A stretch of 33,150 nt of DNA from a virus: positions 1 through 33,150 of the IMG/VR virus record IMGVR_UViG_3300025133_000386; one strand, 5' to 3'. Both the position numbers and the translations under genes were made by a program. The notes beneath the pieces were generated by a model. It made no database searches. It was not told the DNA's origin and saw only the letters and a list, made by a program, of their open reading frames with translations. Of the stretch, positions 392-33,150 are shown piece by piece (positions within the stretch are counted from its first letter, which is position 1; the number at the start of each line of letters is the position of its first letter).

Positions 392-469
392 TTAATCCTC
401 GCTCGTGTCTGGCTGTGGTAGCCGTGGCATGGTGCCGCCGCCGTAGATGATATCTAGCCAATCGTTCAT
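392..469 (-). CDS. Small ORF of 25 codons downstream of RNA element copy 1
   Basis: On the minus strand an ATG at 469 is preceded by TTGGAGAATCACC, a strong ribosome binding site of the same style as the other genes in this operon. The frame runs 25 codons, beginning MNDWLDIIYGGG and ending PDTSED, and stops with TAA two bases before the ATG of the next gene. The tight junction and good start signal favour a real short peptide or a leader ORF for the downstream zinc-type gene. Its own 5' leader is the 54-base structured element at 498-551. No homology is claimed for so short a sequence. Confidence 0.5.
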   Translation of the reverse strand: MNDWLDIIYGGGTMPRLPQPDTSED

Positions 470-497
470 GGTGATTCTCCAAGTGTGCAAATTCCGG

Positions 498-551
498 CTG
501 ATTCAGCCGCGCCAGAGGCTCAGAATCTGAGCCTCTGAATCAGTGAATCAG
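498..551 (-). ncRNA. Structured leader element, copy 1 (54 nt, unknown class)
   Basis: Read on the minus (gene-sense) strand, the element has an outer 8-bp helix (CTGATTCA with TGAATCAG), then CTGATT, then a perfect 12-1-12 inverted repeat (CAGAGGCTCAGA, T, TCTGAGCCTCTG), then GCGCGGC and the other half of the outer helix. It begins one base after the stop of the 244-residue gene and ends 28 bases before the ATG at 469. Copies 2 and 3 have exactly the same segment lengths with different helix sequences, which argues for conserved RNA structure. No U-tract follows the hairpin, so a simple intrinsic terminator is unlikely. Confidence 0.75.
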
Positions 552-552
552 G

Positions 553-1287
553 TTAGATTTTGACTATCTGACCGTCGATTATTTTGGTCACTAGTCGAAC
601 CACGAATCCCTTTAAGTCTTTTTTCGCCGCGCCTTTAGCCTTGAGACCTACGATTACGCCGACTGGGTCAAGGTGTCGCAAATCGTCGGCGTCTCCGTCT
701 ATCACTGGCCAGCCTTGCCATTCTGTCGGTACTTCGTCAAACACGACGGCCACATTCCGGCCAGCGTCAAACTCTGCCTGGATATCTTCAAGCGTGGTAT
801 TTTCTGACCGGCTAAAAGTCAGATGATAGTTAGCCGGTAGGCGGCTAGCTGGTCGGAACTTTGACGGCCATTTCGTATAGTCGTAAAACTGGATATCTGG
901 GAACAATTCCATAATCGTCTGGCCGTCGAATCGGATATTTTCCCAGGTGACGTCGGAATCTGCGTTAGGGCGTGCCGCTGGCAATACTCCGGCTTTGATG
1001 GCTTTACGCTCAAGCGCGGCCAATTCCTTGATTGCCTGTGTGGCGTAACCTTGACGGTCTGTCATAAATAGCGTTGTGCGCTTGATTCTGGCCGCTTTGG
1101 ACGTGCTGGTAATCATCAGACCGGAAGAGTGACCAAGGCATGCCTCTTCACAGGCTGGTGACCGGAATGGGCACATCTGCCAGCCTGACTCACTAGCCGG
1201 TGACAGGTACTGCGCCAGAGTGTAATAGCCATAGTCGGATTTATTAGATTTTTCGATTTTCGTGCTTGTGCTGTAAAGCTTTGTCAT
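553..1287 (-). CDS. DUF7227 / gp88-like phage protein, 244 aa
   Basis: This product resembles a widespread phage family that I know as DUF7227 or gene-88-like. The hallmarks are an early segment ending in Y-x-x-A-Q-Y-L-S-P, a cysteine cluster with C39, C46 and C50 (CPFRSPACEEACLGH), a central FPDIQFYDYTK, then NYHLTFSRSE, NVAVVFD, and a C-terminal VIDGDADDLR..DPVGVIVGLKAKG. The cysteines could bind metal, but the biochemical role is unknown to me. A GTG nine bases upstream (1296) also opens the frame. I prefer the ATG at 1287 because GGAG sits 8 bases before it and only 1 base before the GTG. It lies in the leftward operon, with structured leader copy 2 just upstream and copy 1 just downstream. 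Confidence 0.88.
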   Translation of the reverse strand: MTKLYSTSTKIEKSNKSDYGYYTLAQYLSPASESGWQMCPFRSPACEEACLGHSSGLMITSTSKAARIKRTTLFMTDRQGYATQAIKELAALERKAIKAGVLPAARPNADSDVTWENIRFDGQTIMELFPDIQFYDYTKWPSKFRPASRLPANYHLTFSRSENTTLEDIQAEFDAGRNVAVVFDEVPTEWQGWPVIDGDADDLRHLDPVGVIVGLKAKGAAKKDLKGFVVRLVTKIIDGQIVKI

Positions 1288-1314
1288 GGTGGACACTCCA
1301 AATTAAATTATCGG

Positions 1315-1368
1315 CTAATCTAGCCGCCACAGCCTCTGAGATTCTCAGAGGCTGTATCAGTAGATTAG
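1315..1368 (-). ncRNA. Structured leader element, copy 2 (54 nt, unknown class)
   Basis: On the minus strand the outer 8-bp helix is CTAATCTA with TAGATTAG. The 5' internal-loop strand is CTGATA. The hairpin is a perfect 12-1-12 inverted repeat (CAGCCTCTGAGA, A, TCTCAGAGGCTG), and the 3' internal-loop strand is TGGCGGC. Geometry is identical to copies 1 and 3. The 5' half of the outer helix overlaps the stop codon of the upstream gene (1365-1367). The element ends 27 bases before the ATG at 1287, so it forms the whole leader between two genes. Confidence 0.75.
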
Positions 1369-1808
1369 AAATAGTGTTTAACGTTCGCGGCGTCGATTTT
1401 GTCGCACGTCTCACATTTTCCGATAGGCTCACGGTCATGAATGAAATGTATCCGCTCTGCGCCTAGGATAGAATTGTGCCTGATTAGGTGGTCAAGCTCG
1501 CGCAGATTGTATTCGTAGCACATTTGAGCCTCACGGTAGTCTGCCACGTACATCCGGCGCAGAGCGTCTGATTTCTTCGTTCGTTGCCCGTGACGGTTCC
1601 AAGTATTAGCCGCCTTGGAATTAAAGCCAGCCTTTGCCACGTTCTTACGCTCAAGCCAGCGATTAATCACGCCCATCTGATTCTCGCAGTCTGCCTCGTG
1701 TTGGCTATAGGGTAATTCGAGCGTCTGATTAAACCTCAATTCTTGAGTCTTGTAATCTTCCACAATCTGTACGGGTAGGTTGTTCCTGAATGATACTGTC
1801 CAAAACAT
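1365..1808 (-). CDS. Unknown phage protein with C-terminal Cys pair, 147 aa
   Basis: I do not recognise a family. The ATG at 1808 is preceded by AGGAGTACACC, an unambiguous ribosome binding site. The product is mostly charged and polar, with a predicted helical middle rich in Arg, Lys and Asn (RWLERKNVAKAGFNSK, then NTWNRHGQRTKKSD). The C-terminus carries H-D-R-E-P-I-G-K-C-E-T-C-D, a CxxC half-site that may bind zinc with nearby histidines (IHFIHD). No signal peptide or membrane segment is seen. It is the first well-supported gene of the leftward operon, about 350 bases downstream of the candidate promoter at 2165-2193, and its leader contains structured element copy 3. A nucleic-acid-binding early protein is plausible but unproven. 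Confidence 0.75.
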   Translation of the reverse strand: MFWTVSFRNNLPVQIVEDYKTQELRFNQTLELPYSQHEADCENQMGVINRWLERKNVAKAGFNSKAANTWNRHGQRTKKSDALRRMYVADYREAQMCYEYNLRELDHLIRHNSILGAERIHFIHDREPIGKCETCDKIDAANVKHYF

Positions 1809-1845
1809 GGTGTACTCCTAAAAAGTTGTATAAGATTTTTCAGCT

Positions 1846-1899
1846 ATTAAATAGCCGCCTCTGGGTACTAGTAACTAGTACCCAGAATCAGTATTTAAT
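1846..1899 (-). ncRNA. Structured leader element, copy 3 (54 nt, unknown class)
   Basis: On the minus strand the outer 8-bp helix is ATTAAATA with TATTTAAT. The 5' loop strand is CTGATT. The hairpin is a perfect 12-1-12 repeat (CTGGGTACTAGT, T, ACTAGTACCCAG), and the 3' loop strand is AGGCGGC. The helix sequences share almost nothing with copies 1 and 2, yet every segment length is the same and the CTGATW and GCGGC loop strands are kept. The element ends 37 bases before the ATG at 1808. Confidence 0.75.
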
Positions 1900-2764: not shown

Positions 2765-3058
2765 ATGACTACGTTAGTTGAGCGATTTGGGGAAGATGAG
2801 CGTTTTGAGGGGATGTTGTTTGTTGATGGGTATGATGAAGCGTTCATCGGGTTAGGGTGGCGGTTCCATGATGGCCCTGTTGCGGTATATGACCGGGAGA
2901 AGATTATGGAGATGCTTATGGCTGATGGTCTTAGTTTTGATGAAGCGATGGAGCATTTCGAGTTCAACATCATAGGGGGTTGGGTCGGGGAGTTCACGCC
3001 TATGTTCGTGGTGATGGCTGATGGGCAGAAGATTCGGGAAGAAGGGATTTACTTCTGA
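2765..3058 (+). CDS. Unknown conserved-looking phage protein, 97 aa
   Basis: This is the first gene of the rightward arm. A TTG two codons earlier (2759) also opens the frame. I prefer the ATG at 2765, which lacks a ribosome binding site and may be leaderless. The small acidic protein has the pattern LFVDGYDEAFIGLGWRF, VAVYDREKIMEMLM, then SFDEAMEHFEFNIIGGWVGE. This resembles a hypothetical protein often seen next to phage packaging genes, whose function I do not know. Its TGA overlaps the terminase ATG by one base (TGATG), so the two are translationally coupled. It has no DNA-binding helix-turn-helix that I can see, so calling it a small terminase would be unsupported. Confidence 0.8.
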   Translation: MTTLVERFGEDERFEGMLFVDGYDEAFIGLGWRFHDGPVAVYDREKIMEMLMADGLSFDEAMEHFEFNIIGGWVGEFTPMFVVMADGQKIREEGIYF

Positions 3059-4563
3059 TGGCGACTACAGCTACACGGCAAGAGATTGAACAAGCGGGTA
3101 GGTTTGCTCGTTTCGAGATGGCGAAGCGTGAGTACCGGAGCTTCATGCCTTTTGTGAAGATTGTGGAACCTGGTACTGGGATGGTGACGTTGGAGGAGTG
3201 GCCGCACCTGATGGAGGTTGAAGCTGCTTTAGCGACTGATACCCGTATCGTGTTGGCGAAGAGTCGGCAGATTGGGATGACTACGCTGTTATCCTCTTAT
3301 GTGTTGTGGCACGCTTCCTTCACGCCTAATGCGTTGGCGTTGGTGTTCTCCAAGGGGGAACGGGACGCTTGGGAATTCCTATCTAAGTCCCGAATGACGT
3401 ATGAAGCGTTACCGCCTGAGCTTCAGATGCCGCTTGGTGTGCCCGACAACAGGGAACAGATGACGTTCGAGTCGGGTTCAAGGGTAATCACCCTCCCGTC
3501 TACCGAAGCGGCTGGTCGTGGGTTGAACCCCACCCTAGTCGTGATGGACGAAGCAGACTTCCACGAATACCTGGACGCCGCTTATAACGCCGTGAAGCCT
3601 GGCCTTGACGACAATGACGGCCAATTGGTACTGACCAGTACCGTCAGCCCCTACAAGATGGGGAGCCTCTTCCAGAAGTTATACCTGGGGGCACCCGACA
3701 ACGGGTTCAAGAGGTTGTTCTACGGGTGGCGTGCCAGACCAGCACGTACTGACGAATGGTACGCGGAGAGGAAATCCCAATACCCAGACCAGGCACTCTT
3801 CCAGAAAGAACACCCTGAGAGCGAAGAAGAAGCGTTCGCTCCCACACGCGCCCTCGCCGCCTTCGACCAGACCATCCTCACCCGCATGAAACAAGACGTG
3901 AAGGAACCGGTTGAGGTATTAACTGTGGGTAATGGTGTACGGGCCAATATCTACCAACCCTTCCAACCGGGAAAAAGGTACTCCGCTGGGACTGACACAT
4001 CACACGGCACCGGCAATGACTATGCCGTGACCGTCATATTGGACGCCGTCACCGGCTATATCGCTGCTGATATCTACTCGCAGGTCGTAAACCCGTCAGA
4101 ACTGGCCGTCGCATCTGTTGAATTATTGAACCAGTACGATTCCCCGATATGGGGCATAGAAGATAACGATTGGGGTATACTTACTATTGCGATGGCGCAA
4201 GAACTTCGTTATAGGAAGTTGTACTACCGCGATTCTGACCATCCTGGTTGGCATACTTACGATACCGCCGGTATGACTAACGGCTCCCGTTACGTCCTCT
4301 GGGGAGACCTTATCGAGGCGGTTCACTCACGGGCCATCACGGTACCTAACGGTGATGGACTCTCTCAGTTCTTCACCGTCATACGGAACCCCGACAAACG
4401 GGGGCGCATCGAAGCGCAGTCCGGTACCCATGACGACTACCCGATGGCCGTAGGCATAGCCTGGCAATTAAGACAGAACGCACGCCCTGCTGGCGGCGAA
4501 AACGGTAGACCGGCACGGAGCGGCGCAAGACGCCGACGCCGTGGCTGGTCAAGATGGGGATGA
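3058..4563 (+). CDS. terL: Terminase large subunit, 501 aa
   Basis: This is the DNA-packaging motor and headful or site-specific nuclease, which docks on the portal. The N-terminal ATPase has a Walker A-like KSRQIGMTT (residues about 68-76), with the Q-x-G-x-T-T form typical of terminases, and a Walker B VVMDEAD (about 160-167) ending in the catalytic acidic pair. The C-terminal RNase H-like nuclease shows acidic strand motifs SAGTDTSHGTGNDYAV (about 308-323), IWGIEDNDWG and a late HDDYPMA, supplying the expected Asp/Glu residues. The tail is Arg-rich (ARRRRRGWSR). Length is normal for the family. The start overlaps the preceding stop and the portal follows three bases after the stop. Codon use moves from T/A-ending in the first 400 bases to C-ending near 3480-3900, a possible mosaic junction. 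Confidence 0.96.
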   Translation: MATTATRQEIEQAGRFARFEMAKREYRSFMPFVKIVEPGTGMVTLEEWPHLMEVEAALATDTRIVLAKSRQIGMTTLLSSYVLWHASFTPNALALVFSKGERDAWEFLSKSRMTYEALPPELQMPLGVPDNREQMTFESGSRVITLPSTEAAGRGLNPTLVVMDEADFHEYLDAAYNAVKPGLDDNDGQLVLTSTVSPYKMGSLFQKLYLGAPDNGFKRLFYGWRARPARTDEWYAERKSQYPDQALFQKEHPESEEEAFAPTRALAAFDQTILTRMKQDVKEPVEVLTVGNGVRANIYQPFQPGKRYSAGTDTSHGTGNDYAVTVILDAVTGYIAADIYSQVVNPSELAVASVELLNQYDSPIWGIEDNDWGILTIAMAQELRYRKLYYRDSDHPGWHTYDTAGMTNGSRYVLWGDLIEAVHSRAITVPNGDGLSQFFTVIRNPDKRGRIEAQSGTHDDYPMAVGIAWQLRQNARPAGGENGRPARSGARRRRRGWSRWG

Positions 4564-20101: not shown

Positions 20102-21166
20102 ATGGCTGGCCTAGTAACAACAACCAGCCGTAACGGTAGAGGCTCTGGCTACGGTAATACTGGCTATACGTTCAAGCGTTTCACGGAAAGCATTTCTGAT
20201 TGGCCCAAGCCACTCGGTTGCACCATCATCGTGATGGAGGTTATCGGTGGTGGGGGAGGCGGCGGAGGCGGCCAGAATGGGGCCAGAAGTACTGCTGGTT
20301 CAGGCGGAGGCGGCGGTGGCGGTGCGCTTTCGCGGGCGACTTTCAACGCTGATAGCCTGGGTTCAACTTTATCAATCGTCGTGGGCGCAACTGCGGCTGG
20401 CGGTACTTGTGGTGCATCGCCAGCAGTGGGAACGGCTGGCAACACTTCTTCAGTAGAAGATGATGATACAGGTGCAATTATATGCCGCGCATACGGTGGC
20501 GGCGGCGGCGGATATGCCTCTAACAGCGGCGGTGCATCCGGCTCAGGTGGTGGAGGCGGTGGAACTGGCGGCTCAGGAGCCGTCGGCGCAAGCGCACAAG
20601 GGGCGGGGACAGATGCTGGTGGTAACGGAGGAAACCCGACTATCCAAGGCTCATCATGGTCTGGCGGAACTGATGGTCATTCGCTAGGAGGCAGAGGTGG
20701 CAAAGGCGGAGGAACCTGTGACTCGTCAGCAGGTGATGGTAATGGCGGGTGTGCCGAGTATGGTGGTGGCGGAGGAGGTGGCGGCGGAGGAGCCGCCTAT
20801 TCTGATTTCGCCAATGATGAAGAACAGGGTGGTTCCAGTCTTTTTGGCGCAGGTGGTGGCGGCGGAGGTGGTAGCGGTTCAGGCGGTGCGAGTGAGGATT
20901 TGAAACAAGGCAGACCTGGCGGAGATTGGGGAAGTTTTACATCAGGTGCTGGCGGTTCCCTGGTAGCCGCCGCCAACCCAGGTCATGCCGGAACAGACAG
21001 GGAGTTCGGGTGTGGCAGCGGCGGAGGCGGAGGAGGTCGTGACCGTGGTGGTGGAGATGGTGGCATCCCTGGTGGTGGCGGTGGTGGTGGCGCGGCGGTC
21101 AATACTAATGACGAATACACTGGAGGCGATGGGGCTAGAGGCGAAGTCAGGATGTGGTTTTACTAA
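20102..21166 (+). CDS. Glycine-rich adhesin-like protein 1, 354 aa
   Basis: This is the first of three tandem related proteins. After about 55 ordinary residues (with FTESISDWPKPLGCTIIVMEVIG) the chain becomes very rich in glycine, with many runs of 5-10 Gly separated by short polar inserts, and ends in GARGEVRMWFY. The family shares the order: a strand with W-x-K-P, EVIGGGG, ALSRATF, a beta strand with LSIVVGA, AYGGGGGG, PTIQG, GRGGKGG, EYGGGG, GGSSLFGAGGGG, DREFGCGSGGGG, GGIPGGGGGG, and the closing strand. Such glycine-rich domains occur in phage tail-tip adhesins, where Gly-rich helices pack as a sandwich and variable loops contact the receptor. The role is inferred from that known precedent. 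Confidence 0.85.
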   Translation: MAGLVTTTSRNGRGSGYGNTGYTFKRFTESISDWPKPLGCTIIVMEVIGGGGGGGGGQNGARSTAGSGGGGGGGALSRATFNADSLGSTLSIVVGATAAGGTCGASPAVGTAGNTSSVEDDDTGAIICRAYGGGGGGYASNSGGASGSGGGGGGTGGSGAVGASAQGAGTDAGGNGGNPTIQGSSWSGGTDGHSLGGRGGKGGGTCDSSAGDGNGGCAEYGGGGGGGGGGAAYSDFANDEEQGGSSLFGAGGGGGGGSGSGGASEDLKQGRPGGDWGSFTSGAGGSLVAAANPGHAGTDREFGCGSGGGGGGRDRGGGDGGIPGGGGGGGAAVNTNDEYTGGDGARGEVRMWFY

Positions 21167-22143
21167 TGAGCGGCATAACAAGAAAAAATCAAGCTGGCGT
21201 TAGTGGACTGGTTGGGCCAGTCATGGACTTCCAGCGTTTTACTGCGACCAGCGCAACATGGACTAAACCAGACGGCGTTAAGGTTGTCTGGATAGAGTGT
21301 ATCGGGGCTGGCGCAGGTGGAGGCGGTGGCATGGGTTCTGGCGGGTCAACTAGGAACGCAGGCGGTGGAGGCGGCGGGGCTATGGCCTGGGCTTGCTTCT
21401 CTGCTGATGCCTTAGAAGCCACTATGACTATAGTTGCGGGTGCTGGTGGCAATGCTGGTTCTGCTGGAGCCTCTGGCGGTGCTGGAGGGAACGGTACAGC
21501 AGGGAGTACTTCCACTGTAACGAATGACAGTAAAATCATACTGCAAGCATTTGGTGGAGGATTTGGGGCAGGAAGCACCAATGGCACTTACGGTGGTGGT
21601 GGCGGAGGTGGCGGTACTGGAGCCGTAGGTTCCAACGCTTCTGGCGCAACAGAAGGTGATGGTGGTGACCCTACTATACAAGACTCGACAGAGGGAGATT
21701 CACTAGCAGGCCGTGGTGGTAAGGGTGGCGATAATAGTGCCGCTGGTGGCAATGCAGAATATGGCGGTGGAGGCGGTGGTGGTGCCGCCGCTGGAGGAAG
21801 TTCGCTATATGGCGCAGGTGGTGGTGGTGCTGGTGGAACACTTGCAGATAATGGTACTGCTGGAGGGGCTTGGGCAAGCTATGCCGTAGGCGGTGGAGGA
21901 GCCGCTGCTGATACTTTTGAAGTAGCTGGCACAGCAGGCACTTCCCGTGAATTTGGTTGTGGTGATGGTGGCGGAGGTGGAGCATCCAGTGGTACAGGTG
22001 GAGGGCCAGGTGGCGATGGAGGGGCAGGCGGTGTCCCTGGAGGCGGTGGCGGTTCTGGTGGAGTAGGAAGCACAGGTCAAAGTAAAGCTGGCGGCGCAGG
22101 TGGAGCAGGTGGCAGAGGCGAGGTGAGAATATGGGCCTGGTAG
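21166..22143 (+). CDS. Glycine-rich adhesin-like protein 2, 325 aa
   Basis: This is a paralogue of the preceding protein with the same landmark order: TWTKPDG then VWIECIGAGAGGGGG, AMAWACFSADAL, TIVAGAGGN, LQAFGGG, PTIQDSTEGDSL, GRGGKGG, EYGGGGGGG, GGSSLYGAGGGG, SREFGCGDGGGGG, GGVPGGGGG and GRGEVRIWAW. A GTG at 21154 opens the frame four codons earlier, but I prefer the ATG at 21166, which overlaps the upstream TAA by one base. Its variable inserts differ from paralogue 1, so the copies are old or under diversifying change. A receptor-binding or fibre-tip role is likely but not proven. Confidence 0.85.
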   Translation: MSGITRKNQAGVSGLVGPVMDFQRFTATSATWTKPDGVKVVWIECIGAGAGGGGGMGSGGSTRNAGGGGGGAMAWACFSADALEATMTIVAGAGGNAGSAGASGGAGGNGTAGSTSTVTNDSKIILQAFGGGFGAGSTNGTYGGGGGGGGTGAVGSNASGATEGDGGDPTIQDSTEGDSLAGRGGKGGDNSAAGGNAEYGGGGGGGAAAGGSSLYGAGGGGAGGTLADNGTAGGAWASYAVGGGGAAADTFEVAGTAGTSREFGCGDGGGGGASSGTGGGPGGDGGAGGVPGGGGGSGGVGSTGQSKAGGAGGAGGRGEVRIWAW

Positions 22144-23126
22144 ATGCAAACGCAGTAGGTATGTCTGGTCTGGTTGCCGCTCCTGTTACTGCCCATGTAG
22201 TTACAGCCGCTGGCTCTACGACCTATGTGATTCCAGCAGGGTCTACCCGCGTCTACATCGAATGTGTAGGCGGCGGAGGAGGCGGGGGCGGAGGTGCTAA
22301 ACGAGACAGTGGTGATGGCGCATTTGGTGGTGGAGGCGGAGGCGGTAGCGCGCTAGCGCGTGGTATCTACGATGCTCAATCCATCCCAGCATCATTGACT
22401 GTTGTTGTGGGTGCCGCTGGTGCCGCAGGAAGTGGTGCTACATCAGTAGGTAACGGTACTGGTGGTGCTGTTGGAGGAAACTCGTCTGTTACTTCAGGTA
22501 CTTTTACCCTAACGTCCTATGGTGGAGGCGGTGGGGGATTTGGAACCAATAGCGGTTCAAAAGCAGGCGGGGGCGGAGGCGGCGGAGGTACTGGAGAAGT
22601 TGGTGCAAATGGAGGCACTGAAGGCTCCGCAGGTGATGGTGGCAATCCAGATGTACAAGGCTCAACGCAGGGTGATTCATTAATGGGCCGTGGTGCTAAA
22701 GGTTCACCAGGGAATACAACTGCATATAACGCTGAGTTTGGCGGAGGCGGCGGAGGAAGCGGAGTTTCTGACGCGAGCAATAGCACCGTAGGTGGTTCGT
22801 CGATATTTGGTGCTGGCGGCGGAGGAATGGGAGCCAGAAACGGTGGGGCTGGAACCGCTGGTGGTTCATGGAGTACCTACACAAAAGGCAGTGGCGGTGC
22901 TGGAGGGTCAAGCCAAGGCGATGCAGGAACTGCTGGAACTGACCGCAACTATGGATGCGGCGACGGAGGCGGTGGTGGTGCAGGAAATCAAGGTGCCTCT
23001 GGTGGAGTAGGTGGTGCCGGTGGCCTCCCAGGTGGAGGCGGAGGTGGAGGTGGTGGCGGGTCAGGCCAAAATGGGTCTAACGGTGGGGCAGGCGGAGTCG
23101 GGACAGTTCGGATTTATACGTGGTAG
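22131..23126 (+). CDS. Glycine-rich adhesin-like protein 3, 331 aa
   Basis: This is the third paralogue. It overlaps gene 2 by 13 bases, with GAGGTGAGAAT before the ATG. The N-terminal 40 residues (MGLVDANAVGMSGLVAAPV) differ from the others, and the core then follows the shared order: TYVIPAG, VYIECVGGGGGG, SALARGIYDAQ, LTVVVGAAG, TSYGGGGGG, PDVQGSTQGDSLMGRGAKG, AEFGGGGGG, GGSSIFGAGGGG, TDRNYGCGDGGGGG, GGLPGGGGGG and VGTVRIYTW. The conserved Tyr/Phe-Gly-Cys-Gly before a Gly run is kept in all three. It may supply an alternative receptor specificity or join the others in a mixed tip. Confidence 0.85.
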   Translation: MGLVDANAVGMSGLVAAPVTAHVVTAAGSTTYVIPAGSTRVYIECVGGGGGGGGGAKRDSGDGAFGGGGGGGSALARGIYDAQSIPASLTVVVGAAGAAGSGATSVGNGTGGAVGGNSSVTSGTFTLTSYGGGGGGFGTNSGSKAGGGGGGGGTGEVGANGGTEGSAGDGGNPDVQGSTQGDSLMGRGAKGSPGNTTAYNAEFGGGGGGSGVSDASNSTVGGSSIFGAGGGGMGARNGGAGTAGGSWSTYTKGSGGAGGSSQGDAGTAGTDRNYGCGDGGGGGAGNQGASGGVGGAGGLPGGGGGGGGGGSGQNGSNGGAGGVGTVRIYTW

Positions 23127-30613: not shown

Positions 30614-30808
30614 CTAACATCTCTCCTCCTTCGAGTGGGGGTCTGGATGCGCTTCCTCCAGGCTCTCACTTTCATGTTCGGGTACATCCCGTCCCACCGG
30701 AAACGATTCCATACACCAAGGGCAGTGGCCCATCGTCCTCCCAGGATGTGAGATGTCCTGGTAGTACGGCCACCGTAAGATTGGTGGCCCTGAATTAGAA
30801 CAGTCCAT
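30614..30808 (-). CDS. Small CxxC protein, 64 aa
   Basis: The ATG at 30808 overlaps the RusA stop by one base (TGATG), with AAGGAGG seven bases upstream, the strongest ribosome binding site on the leftward side. The product has HCPWCMESF in the middle and an acidic His-rich tail (EHESESLEEAHPDPH), which together could make one zinc site. It is the promoter-distal gene of the replication block. The family is not recognised. A small zinc-binding accessory to recombination is possible from context. Confidence 0.75.
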   Translation of the reverse strand: MDCSNSGPPILRWPYYQDISHPGRTMGHCPWCMESFPVGRDVPEHESESLEEAHPDPHSKEERC

Positions 30809-31221
30809 CAGTCAACCTCCTTCAGCGTTATCATCGTCATCGGCTCCGGCCCGAACCTCTTCTCTGCTGTCAACCTCACCACCACCGTGTCGTCCTTGAT
30901 GATGATTCCTTTCACCCCGTCGATTGCCGCCTTGACCATGTTGTCGAGGTCAGGCTTCCGGCATAACGCTTCCTTCAACCGCCGCTCACGGTTGGCCTCT
31001 CTCTTCGGCAGATTGTTGGGGTAGCTTTTAATGAACACCAGGTTAATCTCAACCGCCGTTTCTATGAGTGGCTTGTTGCGCCATACCTCCAAGCACTTTG
31101 CCTGGATGGTGGCCTGGTACGCCTTGAACTCCAGATACCCAGGCGTAGGGGCTGACATCCTGACCCATACCTGCCACGGCTTGGGTTCTCCAGGGACAGT
31201 CATATTTATGAGTTCACTCAT
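30808..31221 (-). CDS. rusA: RusA-family Holliday-junction resolvase, 137 aa
   Basis: This nuclease cuts four-way DNA junctions formed in replication and recombination, clearing branches before packaging. The family signature is present: RKPDLDNMVKAAIDGVKG at about residues 88-105 and IIIKDDTVVVRLTAEKRFG at 107-124. It supplies the acidic residues D91, D93, D101 and D110/D111 and the basic surface. The N-terminal MTVPGEPKPWQVWVR strand and the VEINLVFIKSYP strand are also typical. Length is normal. The gene overlaps the upstream gene by four bases (ATGA) and the downstream one by one base, so it is tightly coupled. Confidence 0.95.
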   Translation of the reverse strand: MSELINMTVPGEPKPWQVWVRMSAPTPGYLEFKAYQATIQAKCLEVWRNKPLIETAVEINLVFIKSYPNNLPKREANRERRLKEALCRKPDLDNMVKAAIDGVKGIIIKDDTVVVRLTAEKRFGPEPMTMITLKEVD

Positions 31222-31547
31222 AATTCCAGGGTCATCTGTTTACTGTCCAGGGTGCGCCAGTGCTTCAGGGGTAGGACGGTCTGCTTCCCTTCGCCACGGT
31301 CAACCTCTTCACCGTAGGTCTTGAAGGTCTCAAGGGTAGCGGTCAGGCGGGTGCCGTCAGTGGTGCGGAGTTCTACGCCGGTGCCCTTCTGTTTCTCCAG
31401 CGTATCTAGGTGTGCCGTGTCGATAGCCCAGCCAGGTGGATACCTCATCTGGTGCTTGGCTGGGTCTAGTCCTACCTTAAGTAGTATGCCATCGTCATTG
31501 ATACTGCCGGTAATCTGTCGGCGTTGGTTATACAGTGGTGTGTTCAT
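31218..31547 (-). CDS. Unknown small protein of the replication block, 109 aa
   Basis: AGGAGGCGAG precedes the ATG at 31547. The product begins MNTPLYNQRRQITGSINDDG, has a central WAIDTAHLDTLEKQKGTGVEL, a beta-type TTDGTRLTATLETFKTYGEEVDRGEGKQ and a final LPLKHWRTL. The family is not recognised. The mix of strands and Arg/Lys residues would suit a small DNA-binding or accessory protein. It ends by overlapping the RusA start by four bases, and its own start overlaps the stop of the short ORF upstream in the same way. Confidence 0.75.
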   Translation of the reverse strand: MNTPLYNQRRQITGSINDDGILLKVGLDPAKHQMRYPPGWAIDTAHLDTLEKQKGTGVELRTTDGTRLTATLETFKTYGEEVDRGEGKQTVLPLKHWRTLDSKQMTLEL

Positions 31548-31729
31548 CTCGCCTCCTGTAAATAGATGAGAGTGGCGGGGGCCAAAGCGTTTGGAGAAGC
31601 GCGTGACCCCTCTTTAATCAGCCATGTATGCCCAGCCGTTATCGTATGCGTATGAGCCTTGGCTAGCTTATGCGCTCCATTGTGGTGGAGTAACGGCGAC
31701 GTGGAGACACCATGCCTCTGATACGCCAT
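31544..31729 (-). CDS. Possible small His-rich protein, 61 aa
   Basis: The frame ends in a four-base ATGA overlap with the next gene, which is the usual junction in this operon. The product has several histidines (LLHHNGAHKLAKAHTHTITAGHTW), which might bind metal. However, the ATG at 31729 lacks a ribosome binding site, and the last part lies over the next gene's ribosome binding site. The codons at the end could equally be a chance frame. It fills an otherwise empty gap of about 210 bases between the ATPase gene and the next gene. Real or not cannot be settled by eye. Confidence 0.4.
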   Translation of the reverse strand: MAYQRHGVSTSPLLHHNGAHKLAKAHTHTITAGHTWLIKEGSRASPNALAPATLIYLQEAR

Positions 31730-31754
31730 GGTTGGGTGGCCGAACCAGTCTCAG

Positions 31755-33150
31755 TTAATTAGCTTCTATCCACCCTTCTACCTTATAGAGTGTTGGCCCT
31801 GGTTCCTGGTTGCCATTAGAGTCAGTGGCAACGACAAACATATTCCGGTTGTCACTGAATACCTTGTGGATGGTGTTTACCTTCCGGTCAGTGGCGGCAA
31901 CTATCTCCTCCACAGAGGATGGGCCGTTGTCCATCAAGAACTGGTGAACTACCTCTTTGGCTGGTAGACGGGACGCCAGTTCCGGTACGTCAACGATGCT
32001 CTGGGTGTTGAACCTGATGGCGTCCTCGTTGAAGGACACCGATATACCCATCGGTTTCTCCAGCCGTCCGTCGTTAATCTTACGGTGGTACAGTCCCAGG
32101 TTCATGGTGTCCTGACCGGCGTCCTGTTGCCGCTTAATCTCCATGGTGCTTCGGGCCTCGTTAGTCCAGAAGACTGAACCGAACGGTTTACCAGTGTCGT
32201 CATTGCCTTTGGTCTGGTGCCCTATCAGCAGGGCTGTCGTGTCCAGTGCCCGTACCGCATTGCACAGCCTGAGTGCTACGTCAGCACGCTCTGGTTCACC
32301 GCCACAGGCGGCGGCTATGCTGTCTATGATTACCATGTTGCACCCTGATTCGGTTAGATGACGCTTCACTTGCCTGGCTATCTCATGGAGGGGTGCTGAA
32401 CACCGGAGGTAGGCCATGTCTAGCATCGGTTCTGGGTGCATCAGCTTCTTCAACCTGCTGGCGTGGGCATTAGGACTGGCCTCCCAGTCCAGGTACATGG
32501 TCTTGACGTTGCCATTGGGCACCATGCCACTGAGCATACTGTTCTGGGTCTGTAAGCTGACTGCCGCCGCCATGGCGATAAGGGACTTACCGTTACCACC
32601 GTCACCAAAGAGGATGTTTATCTCGTCCTCAAGGATGAGCGGCCAGAGCAACCAGTTCGGTGGGAACCCTTCGTAGTGGGCCAGGTTCAGTAGGCTTGGC
32701 CCCACCTTGAAGTGTGCTATGGCTAGACGGCAGACCGTATCCATCATGGTGGCCCACGCTAACTCAGGCATCTGACCGCCCAGGTATTTCACTAGGCTGT
32801 TGCGTGTTGTGGTACTAGATAGGTTGAAGCGTATCGGGCCGTGGTCTAGGGTCTGCCTGCCAGGCATGATTGCTTCGATATCTAACTCGCAGTGGATACC
32901 GTCACGGTCACGCACCATCTCGTCCACCTTGATGCAGACGCCGCTCTTTCGCCAGGTGTATATCAACTGACCGGCTATCTCTTGGAAGTCAGGTGGGTCA
33001 ACGATATGGTGGTCTGTTATCTGCCTCTCATAACGACAGACACTAGCTACCGTGCGCCTCAGTTCCCGTATGTCCATGGGTGGTGTGCAGGCTTCGGCGA
33101 ACGGGGTCAGGATGGCATAGATTATGTCCTCTGCCACGCCGGACTTATGG
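31755..33150 (-). CDS. Primase C-terminal plus RecA-like ATPase/helicase, partial
   Basis: The reading frame is open through the window end, so this is a 3' part of a longer gene. A GTG at 33137 exists but is probably internal. The first visible part (AEDIIYAILTPFAEACTPPMDIRELRRTVASVCRYE) resembles the PriCT_1 domain found after archaeal/viral primase-polymerase domains. A RecA/AAA_25-type ATPase follows, with Walker A GDGGNGKS (about 176-183 from that GTG), Walker B NMVIIDSIA (about 265-273) and LLIGHQTKG. The last 70 residues look like a winged helix (LMDNGPSSVEEIVAATDRKVNTIHKVFSDN). The likely role is DNA-replication initiation and unwinding. No promoter is visible in the window. Confidence 0.88.
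   Translation of the reverse strand, partial: HKSGVAEDIIYAILTPFAEACTPPMDIRELRRTVASVCRYERQITDHHIVDPPDFQEIAGQLIYTWRKSGVCIKVDEMVRDRDGIHCELDIEAIMPGRQTLDHGPIRFNLSSTTTRNSLVKYLGGQMPELAWATMMDTVCRLAIAHFKVGPSLLNLAHYEGFPPNWLLWPLILEDEINILFGDGGNGKSLIAMAAAVSLQTQNSMLSGMVPNGNVKTMYLDWEASPNAHASRLKKLMHPEPMLDMAYLRCSAPLHEIARQVKRHLTESGCNMVIIDSIAAACGGEPERADVALRLCNAVRALDTTALLIGHQTKGNDDTGKPFGSVFWTNEARSTMEIKRQQDAGQDTMNLGLYHRKINDGRLEKPMGISVSFNEDAIRFNTQSIVDVPELASRLPAKEVVHQFLMDNGPSSVEEIVAATDRKVNTIHKVFSDNRNMFVVATDSNGNQEPGPTLYKVEGWIEAN

Follow-up and report, generated by a model that had tools for sequence, protein, structure and literature searches.

A repeated, covarying RNA element between the genes of an uncultured phage operon and its candidate role in mRNA cutting and refolding

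In a group of uncultured tailed phages, the leftward operon carries cis-acting intercistronic structured RNAs that near-certainly form an RNA family, rated here as a new family within a known kind, the intercistronic processing or regulatory hairpin. The reading that fits them best, with a probability of roughly 0.4, is that they act as processing sites of the phage T7 kind, at which host RNase III or another endonuclease would divide the operon transcript into separately stable mRNAs. Moreover, the predicted refolding of the hairpin suggests a previously undescribed, built-in signal for cutting and protecting (or switching) the mRNA. Three features were missing from the preliminary description of this DNA: an alternative helix (P3) that excludes the basal helix P1, the stop codon of the upstream gene at the foot of P1, and the wide spread of the copies.

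Three copies in the window

The window is the whole stretch analysed, 33,150 nt of an uncultured virus (IMG/VR virus record IMGVR_UViG_3300025133_000386, positions 1 to 33,150). Its relevant features are the following:

392..469, minus strand: 25-aa ORF (MNDWLDIIYGGG...) behind W1, with a homologue behind element K4 of contig L085
467..497, minus strand: leader of W1, an A/T-rich stretch with a TTGGAG ribosome binding site and an ATG at 469-467; this leader type is also found in relatives
498..551, minus strand: element W1, of type 1 and 54 nt long, flanked by the GP88-family gene and the 25-aa ORF
553..1287, minus strand: GP88-family gene (phrog_1617 / Pfam GP88) between W2 and W1, listed as 553-1296, with its start corrected to the ATG at 1287
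1315..1368, minus strand: element W2, type 1, 54 nt; gene 1365-1808 ends within it, with the stop codon TAA at bases 2-4 of the element
1365..1808, minus strand: 147-aa gene between W3 and W2, without family match
1846..1899, minus strand: element W3, type 1, 54 nt; the first element of the operon, without an upstream gene or leader ORF ending at its base
3058-4563: large-terminase gene

The preliminary description had placed three 54-nt segments at 498-551, 1315-1368 and 1846-1899 of the minus strand, all of which lie there and align without gaps. They follow, as it had proposed, a common plan of an 8-bp P1, CTGATW, a 12-1-12 inverted repeat, NNGCGGC and the partner strand of P1. The inverted repeat is perfect as sequence and amounts, as RNA, to an upper helix (P2) of 11-12 bp with a 3-nt loop. 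Likewise, the CTGAT and GCGGC strands are kept, as claimed, but the "internal loop" ascribed to them is not all loop: because CUG (left strand) and CGG (right strand) are predicted to form three pairs, the middle one a U-G wobble, with the last C bulged, it resolves into a 3-bp core and a 2x2 loop between this core and P2. The minimum free energies of W1, W2 and W3 are -33.6, -33.5 and -25.8 kcal/mol (z = -6.2, -8.5 and -6.6 against dinucleotide shuffles, with equally good folds in 0 of 200 shuffles). The window contains three exact matches to the loop pattern, always on the minus strand, and the reversed control contains none. The distance from the end of the element to the ATG is 28, 27 and 37 nt, in line with the 27-37 given earlier, and no U-tract follows any of the three, again as described.

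Elsewhere in the window, the gap that separates the leftward operon from the terminase operon holds a cluster of the octamers CTTCAGGT/ACCTGAAG, direct and inverted (2631-2746), which may be an origin or a regulator site; at this gap, the relatives L068 and L072 show long inverted repeats that are A/T-rich and include CAGGTC. Three long glycine-rich ORFs in a row (20102-23126) are possibly tandem paralogous tail or fibre proteins. The leftward genes at the right end (30808-33137), which include a RusA-like resolvase (30808-31221) and an AAA_25/helicase-like protein (31755-33137), hold no element copies.

Distribution among related contigs

IMG/VR was searched with DNA patterns and with a covariance model built from the three window copies, as the preliminary description had proposed, and the family thus obtained comprises 29 distinct sequences in related contigs, up to eight per contig and every one running with the genes. 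Copies per contig are as follows:

G001 (IMGVR_3300030382_002450): 8
L085: 8
G013 (IMGVR_3300030090_003584): 7, one of them cut by the contig end
L005: 5
L044, L046 and L060: 2 each, with identical flanks
L034: 1

Copies are also carried by L004 and L059, both near-identical to the window. In the covariance-model search of 577 kb, family matches have E <= 5e-4 and the next-best match has 0.047; many loci reached by the DNA patterns are chance matches, with covariance-model E values of 0.047 or worse outside the family. Alongside type 1, a type-2 variant (CCAATC...GWGTGGGYC or CTGCC...TATCGGGCC) sits in the downstream part of the operon. In one copy (G5, L061 9431-9487), the two halves of P1 resemble two different subtypes and hold one A-C mismatch, as if they had been joined by recombination within the element.

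Outside this group, isolate phages have no DNA match to the first 2.8 kb of the window or to the array of G013, and among 84,980 prokaryote genomes scanned by pattern there is a single match, in a Deltaproteobacteria MAG (L083), that is taken as chance, being located in an apparent coding start and without pairing. The Rfam 15 covariance models have no match in the window at gathering score, and L085 gives a chance-level match only at a relaxed threshold; riboswitch, ribozyme and known leader are therefore rejected, in agreement with the earlier statement that none of those described fits. No description of repeated covarying phage spacers was found in the open-access literature. An intrinsic terminator and a sigma-70 promoter are rejected as well: scans for both stay at chance level, and the hairpin is not directly followed by a U-tract.

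Covariation and strand

The nineteen type-1 copies align almost without gaps and were tested over 22 pairs, that is, 418 cells, of which 95.7% are paired, compared with 24-41% in slid controls. Counted without regard to kinship, both sides change in 16 of the 22 pairs, double changes fill 59 cells against 14.0 +- 2.7 in shuffles, and covariation is scored at 0.452, as against 0.123, with none of 500 shuffles reaching any of these measures. P2 of type 1 is the most regular part (99.5% paired; 10 of 11 pairs covary), while the eight type-2 copies are 92.2% paired, with covariation in 10 of 21 pairs when kinship is likewise ignored. Copies at equivalent positions before or after the same gene (W3/G8 and W2/G7) also differ by compensated changes. 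The earlier claim of a functional RNA as opposed to a DNA palindrome is borne out in relatives, in which the helices change and the pairing is kept.

The core bears on the strand: every type-1 copy has exactly one U-G and never A-C in CUG/CGG, at the same position in 18 of 19; this conserved pair fits the sense strand. P2 holds two G-U and no A-C pairs in type 1, and four G-U and three A-C in type 2. Conversely, the departures in type-1 P1 are seven A-C and no G-U, so that P1 alone is no proof of the sense strand.

An alternative helix

The CGGYY stretch, made of the 3' strand of the core and the start of the 3' strand of P1, can pair in nearly all copies with RRCCG just downstream, before the ribosome binding site, to form the helix P3, so that P3 and P1/core are mutually exclusive. 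In the window, it is located as follows:

495..509, minus strand: P3 of W1, CGGCTG-AAT-CAGCCG
1312..1326, minus strand: P3 of W2, CGGCTA-GAT-TAGCCG
1841..1857, minus strand: P3 of W3, CGGCTAT-TTA-ATAGCTG

Type-1 pairs are CGGCU/AGCCG and CGGUC/GACCG, and in type 2 the partner is GRCCC, with the pairs GGGUC/GACCC and GGGCC/GGCCC; P3 thus covaries, CU/AG being exchanged with UC/GA in the former and the two pairs with each other in the latter. The mean P3 score is 12.96 with the copy's own partner, 10.09 with swapped partners (0 of 2000 as high) and 7.5 with shuffled sequence. The P3 loop varies from 3 to 18 nt, and P3 is weak in copies T2, K7 and K8. In predicted energy, the long fold is favoured over the P3 fold by a mean ddG of 2.6 kcal/mol (range 0 to 6.3), and the difference is zero in four copies.

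L069, a close relative as judged by its terminase (94%), lacks the long element at its gene boundaries, and the full element is therefore dispensable. At about position 2951 of its minus strand, L069 has a half element, GCGCCTAACCT-GCGGTCAGATTAGACCG, from which P2 and most of P1 are gone; the GCGGTCAGATTAGACCG retained in this one leader amounts to P3 and the leader without P2.

Stop codons and gene rearrangement

The register between genes and elements was assessed at 33 places, taking for each element the longest open frame that ends there. The upstream stop codon falls at element positions 2-4 in 17 of the 33 places, at 3-5 in four and between -8 and +1 in nine, hence within -8 to +5 in 30. 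The exceptions (W3, its counterpart E1 in L005, and G8) are the first elements of their operons and have neither an upstream gene nor a short leader ORF ending at the base of the element; P1, P2 and P3 are all present in such first elements. At the opposite end, the last copy of G013 (M6) follows the last rightward gene of its array, with a convergent gene 10 bp beyond, and lacks a convincing P3.

W1 recurs unchanged, at 54 of 54 positions, in L004, L005, L034, L044, L046 and L060, and these identical copies have different neighbour genes in the window, in L005, in L034 and in L044/L046/L060. Between the equivalents of W2 and W1, L005 contains an extra 104-aa gene with its own element (2554-2945), whose P2 differs by compensated changes. 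Leaders follow the element and not the gene: one leader is common to K2 and the first copy of G013 (1-40), which precede different genes. On sequence comparison, this pattern suggests recombination at spacers that the phages have in common, and not the insertion of cassettes at specific sites.

Proposed function and alternative explanations

From the computed structure, covariation, P3 and stop-codon register, we infer a route of cutting and protection by an endonuclease. Host RNase III or another such enzyme would cleave the 3' strand of the internal loop immediately ahead of CGG. P2 would then remain as a protective hairpin on the 3' end of the upstream message, and processing in T7 similarly leaves a hairpin on the upstream product. 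The cut would also free CGGYY, allowing P3 to close right at the 5' terminus of the downstream message, which it would shield from 5'-end-dependent decay, and the operon would be converted into separately stable mRNAs. If the cut is placed before CGG, the product is predicted to begin directly with P3, at its nucleotide 1, in almost every type-1 copy. Among the functions offered in the preliminary description, processing or decay control fits best, and a self-cleaving ribozyme is unsupported because there is no Rfam ribozyme match and the conserved core is very small.

The processing model accounts for the conserved core, for helices that vary but stay paired, for the start of P3 at the core and for the presence of an element before the first gene. 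It is favoured by the first element, which keeps all three helices, and by the L069 leader that retains P3 without P2. Against it stand the stop-codon register, which processing alone does not explain, the weak P3 of T2, K7 and K8, the A-C departures in P1 and the lack of the full element in L069. The phage contigs encode no RNase III domain, and a host enzyme must therefore be assumed.

A translation-coupled switch, in which P1, with the stop codon in it, would be melted by a ribosome that terminates there and P3 could form, so that the downstream gene would respond, through the spacer's state, to translation of the gene before it (by way of initiation, polarity or decay), is rather unlikely but would make sense of that register and of two exclusive, nearly isoenergetic helices. 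It is opposed by the first elements, which have every helix and no upstream ORF, and by the modelled accessibility of the ribosome binding site, which barely differs among the long, ribosome-melted and cut forms; the register, moreover, may merely reflect compact gene packing. Simple masking of the Shine-Dalgarno sequence is therefore not the point, and its sequestration by either fold is rejected. Processing and a translation-driven switch are not mutually exclusive. A tentative, possible further reading is a new class of phage RNA, a modular bistable intercistronic spacer (upstream stop, recognition core and two exclusive helices) that would couple termination on one gene to the processing, stability or initiation of the next gene; the element would then be a repeated part, kept by covariation while genes shuffle around it. 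It is unlikely that the hairpin acts without cutting, as a translational insulator against read-through reinitiation or as a stabiliser of mRNA ends against 3' exonucleases: its start at the stop codon, its high stability and copy M6, with no gene behind it, agree with such a role, which leaves the conserved core (CUG/CGG and bulged C) and the covarying P3 unexplained.

Explanations at the DNA level carry still less weight. A double-stranded site (an operator, a promoter-like element or a recombination anchor, resembling the ESAS repeats of cluster K mycobacteriophages), with the RNA structure incidental, would be suggested by the near-perfect palindrome of P2, by the A-C departures in P1, and by the identical 54-nt copy between different genes together with the gene-plus-element gain in L005, since these two observations indicate that recombination happens at element sites. 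This reading is improbable, as the arms vary widely with their pairing kept, the orientation is always that of the genes, the core U-G is a mismatch on the other strand and the P3 loop ranges from 3 to 18 nt. More improbable by far is an array of gene cassettes with integron attC-like, single-strand recombination sites, which an imperfect hairpin with a bulged base and a variable top stem, one per small ORF in a single direction, and one gain of a gene with its element would recall; paired R' GTTRRRY and R'' RYYYAAC boxes are found in no copy, no tyrosine integrase (PF00589) is encoded in G000, G001, G003 and G013, contigs that may be incomplete, and leaders travel with elements, not genes (K2 and the G013 copy at 1-40).

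Relation to known systems

The part of the phage T7 account used here (PMC8708148) provides, with R1.1, the precedent of an RNase III processing site and describes such sites as irregular hairpins of about 50 nt between early genes, with two stems, an internal bulge or loop and several copies per operon. The present elements share these traits, being irregular stems with an internal loop between genes whose order suggests a polycistronic transcript; relative to the T7 sites as that part presents them, they differ in a cleavage that is so far putative, in the stop codon in the lower stem and in the covarying 5' hairpin P3. For the latter, a likeness is the cspA leader of S. aureus, in which a small hairpin can form at the 5' end once RNase III has cut, with a rise in half-life from <2.5 to >16 min (PMC3386247). 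In both designs, cutting a long hairpin would set free a short one at the 5' end, before the ribosome binding site; this short hairpin is predicted here in nearly all copies on the assumption of a cut before CGG; cspA is a single bacterial gene, whereas the present design is repeated between phage genes.

Repeats near start codons are known from other phages. The nearest described counterpart, the SAS/ESAS of cluster K mycobacteriophages (TM4 group; PMC3203893), similarly combines a repeated inverted repeat with a conserved leader directly before the start codons of many small non-structural genes in one phage group only. However, ESAS arms hold a consensus sequence, and the departures in the repeats were judged by their authors not to support RNA pairing, with no support for a hairpin (PMC3203893). 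No such single consensus of the arms within a phage was found in the present elements, whose arms differ and covary and are joined by a conserved core and P3. The 13-bp SAS located at the start codon (GGGATAGGAGCCC) is absent, at up to two mismatches, from the window, L061, L085, L005 and L046, and the scan at two mismatches gives only one site, unrelated, in L087. The start-associated repeats of cluster O and EG actinobacteriophages (PMC4351075, PMC7302621) are also short inverted repeats, many of them intergenic and upstream of start codons, but consist of a fixed 17-18-bp DNA sequence with invariant arms and no reported covariation.

The family is thus unlike the ESAS repeats, which have long gone unexplained and for which pairing as RNA was rejected, and with its many paralogous copies per genome it supplies its own comparative evidence. 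It provides an example of a phage operon built with a repeated RNA part between its genes and gives a clean test of cut-and-refold against ribosome-driven switching.
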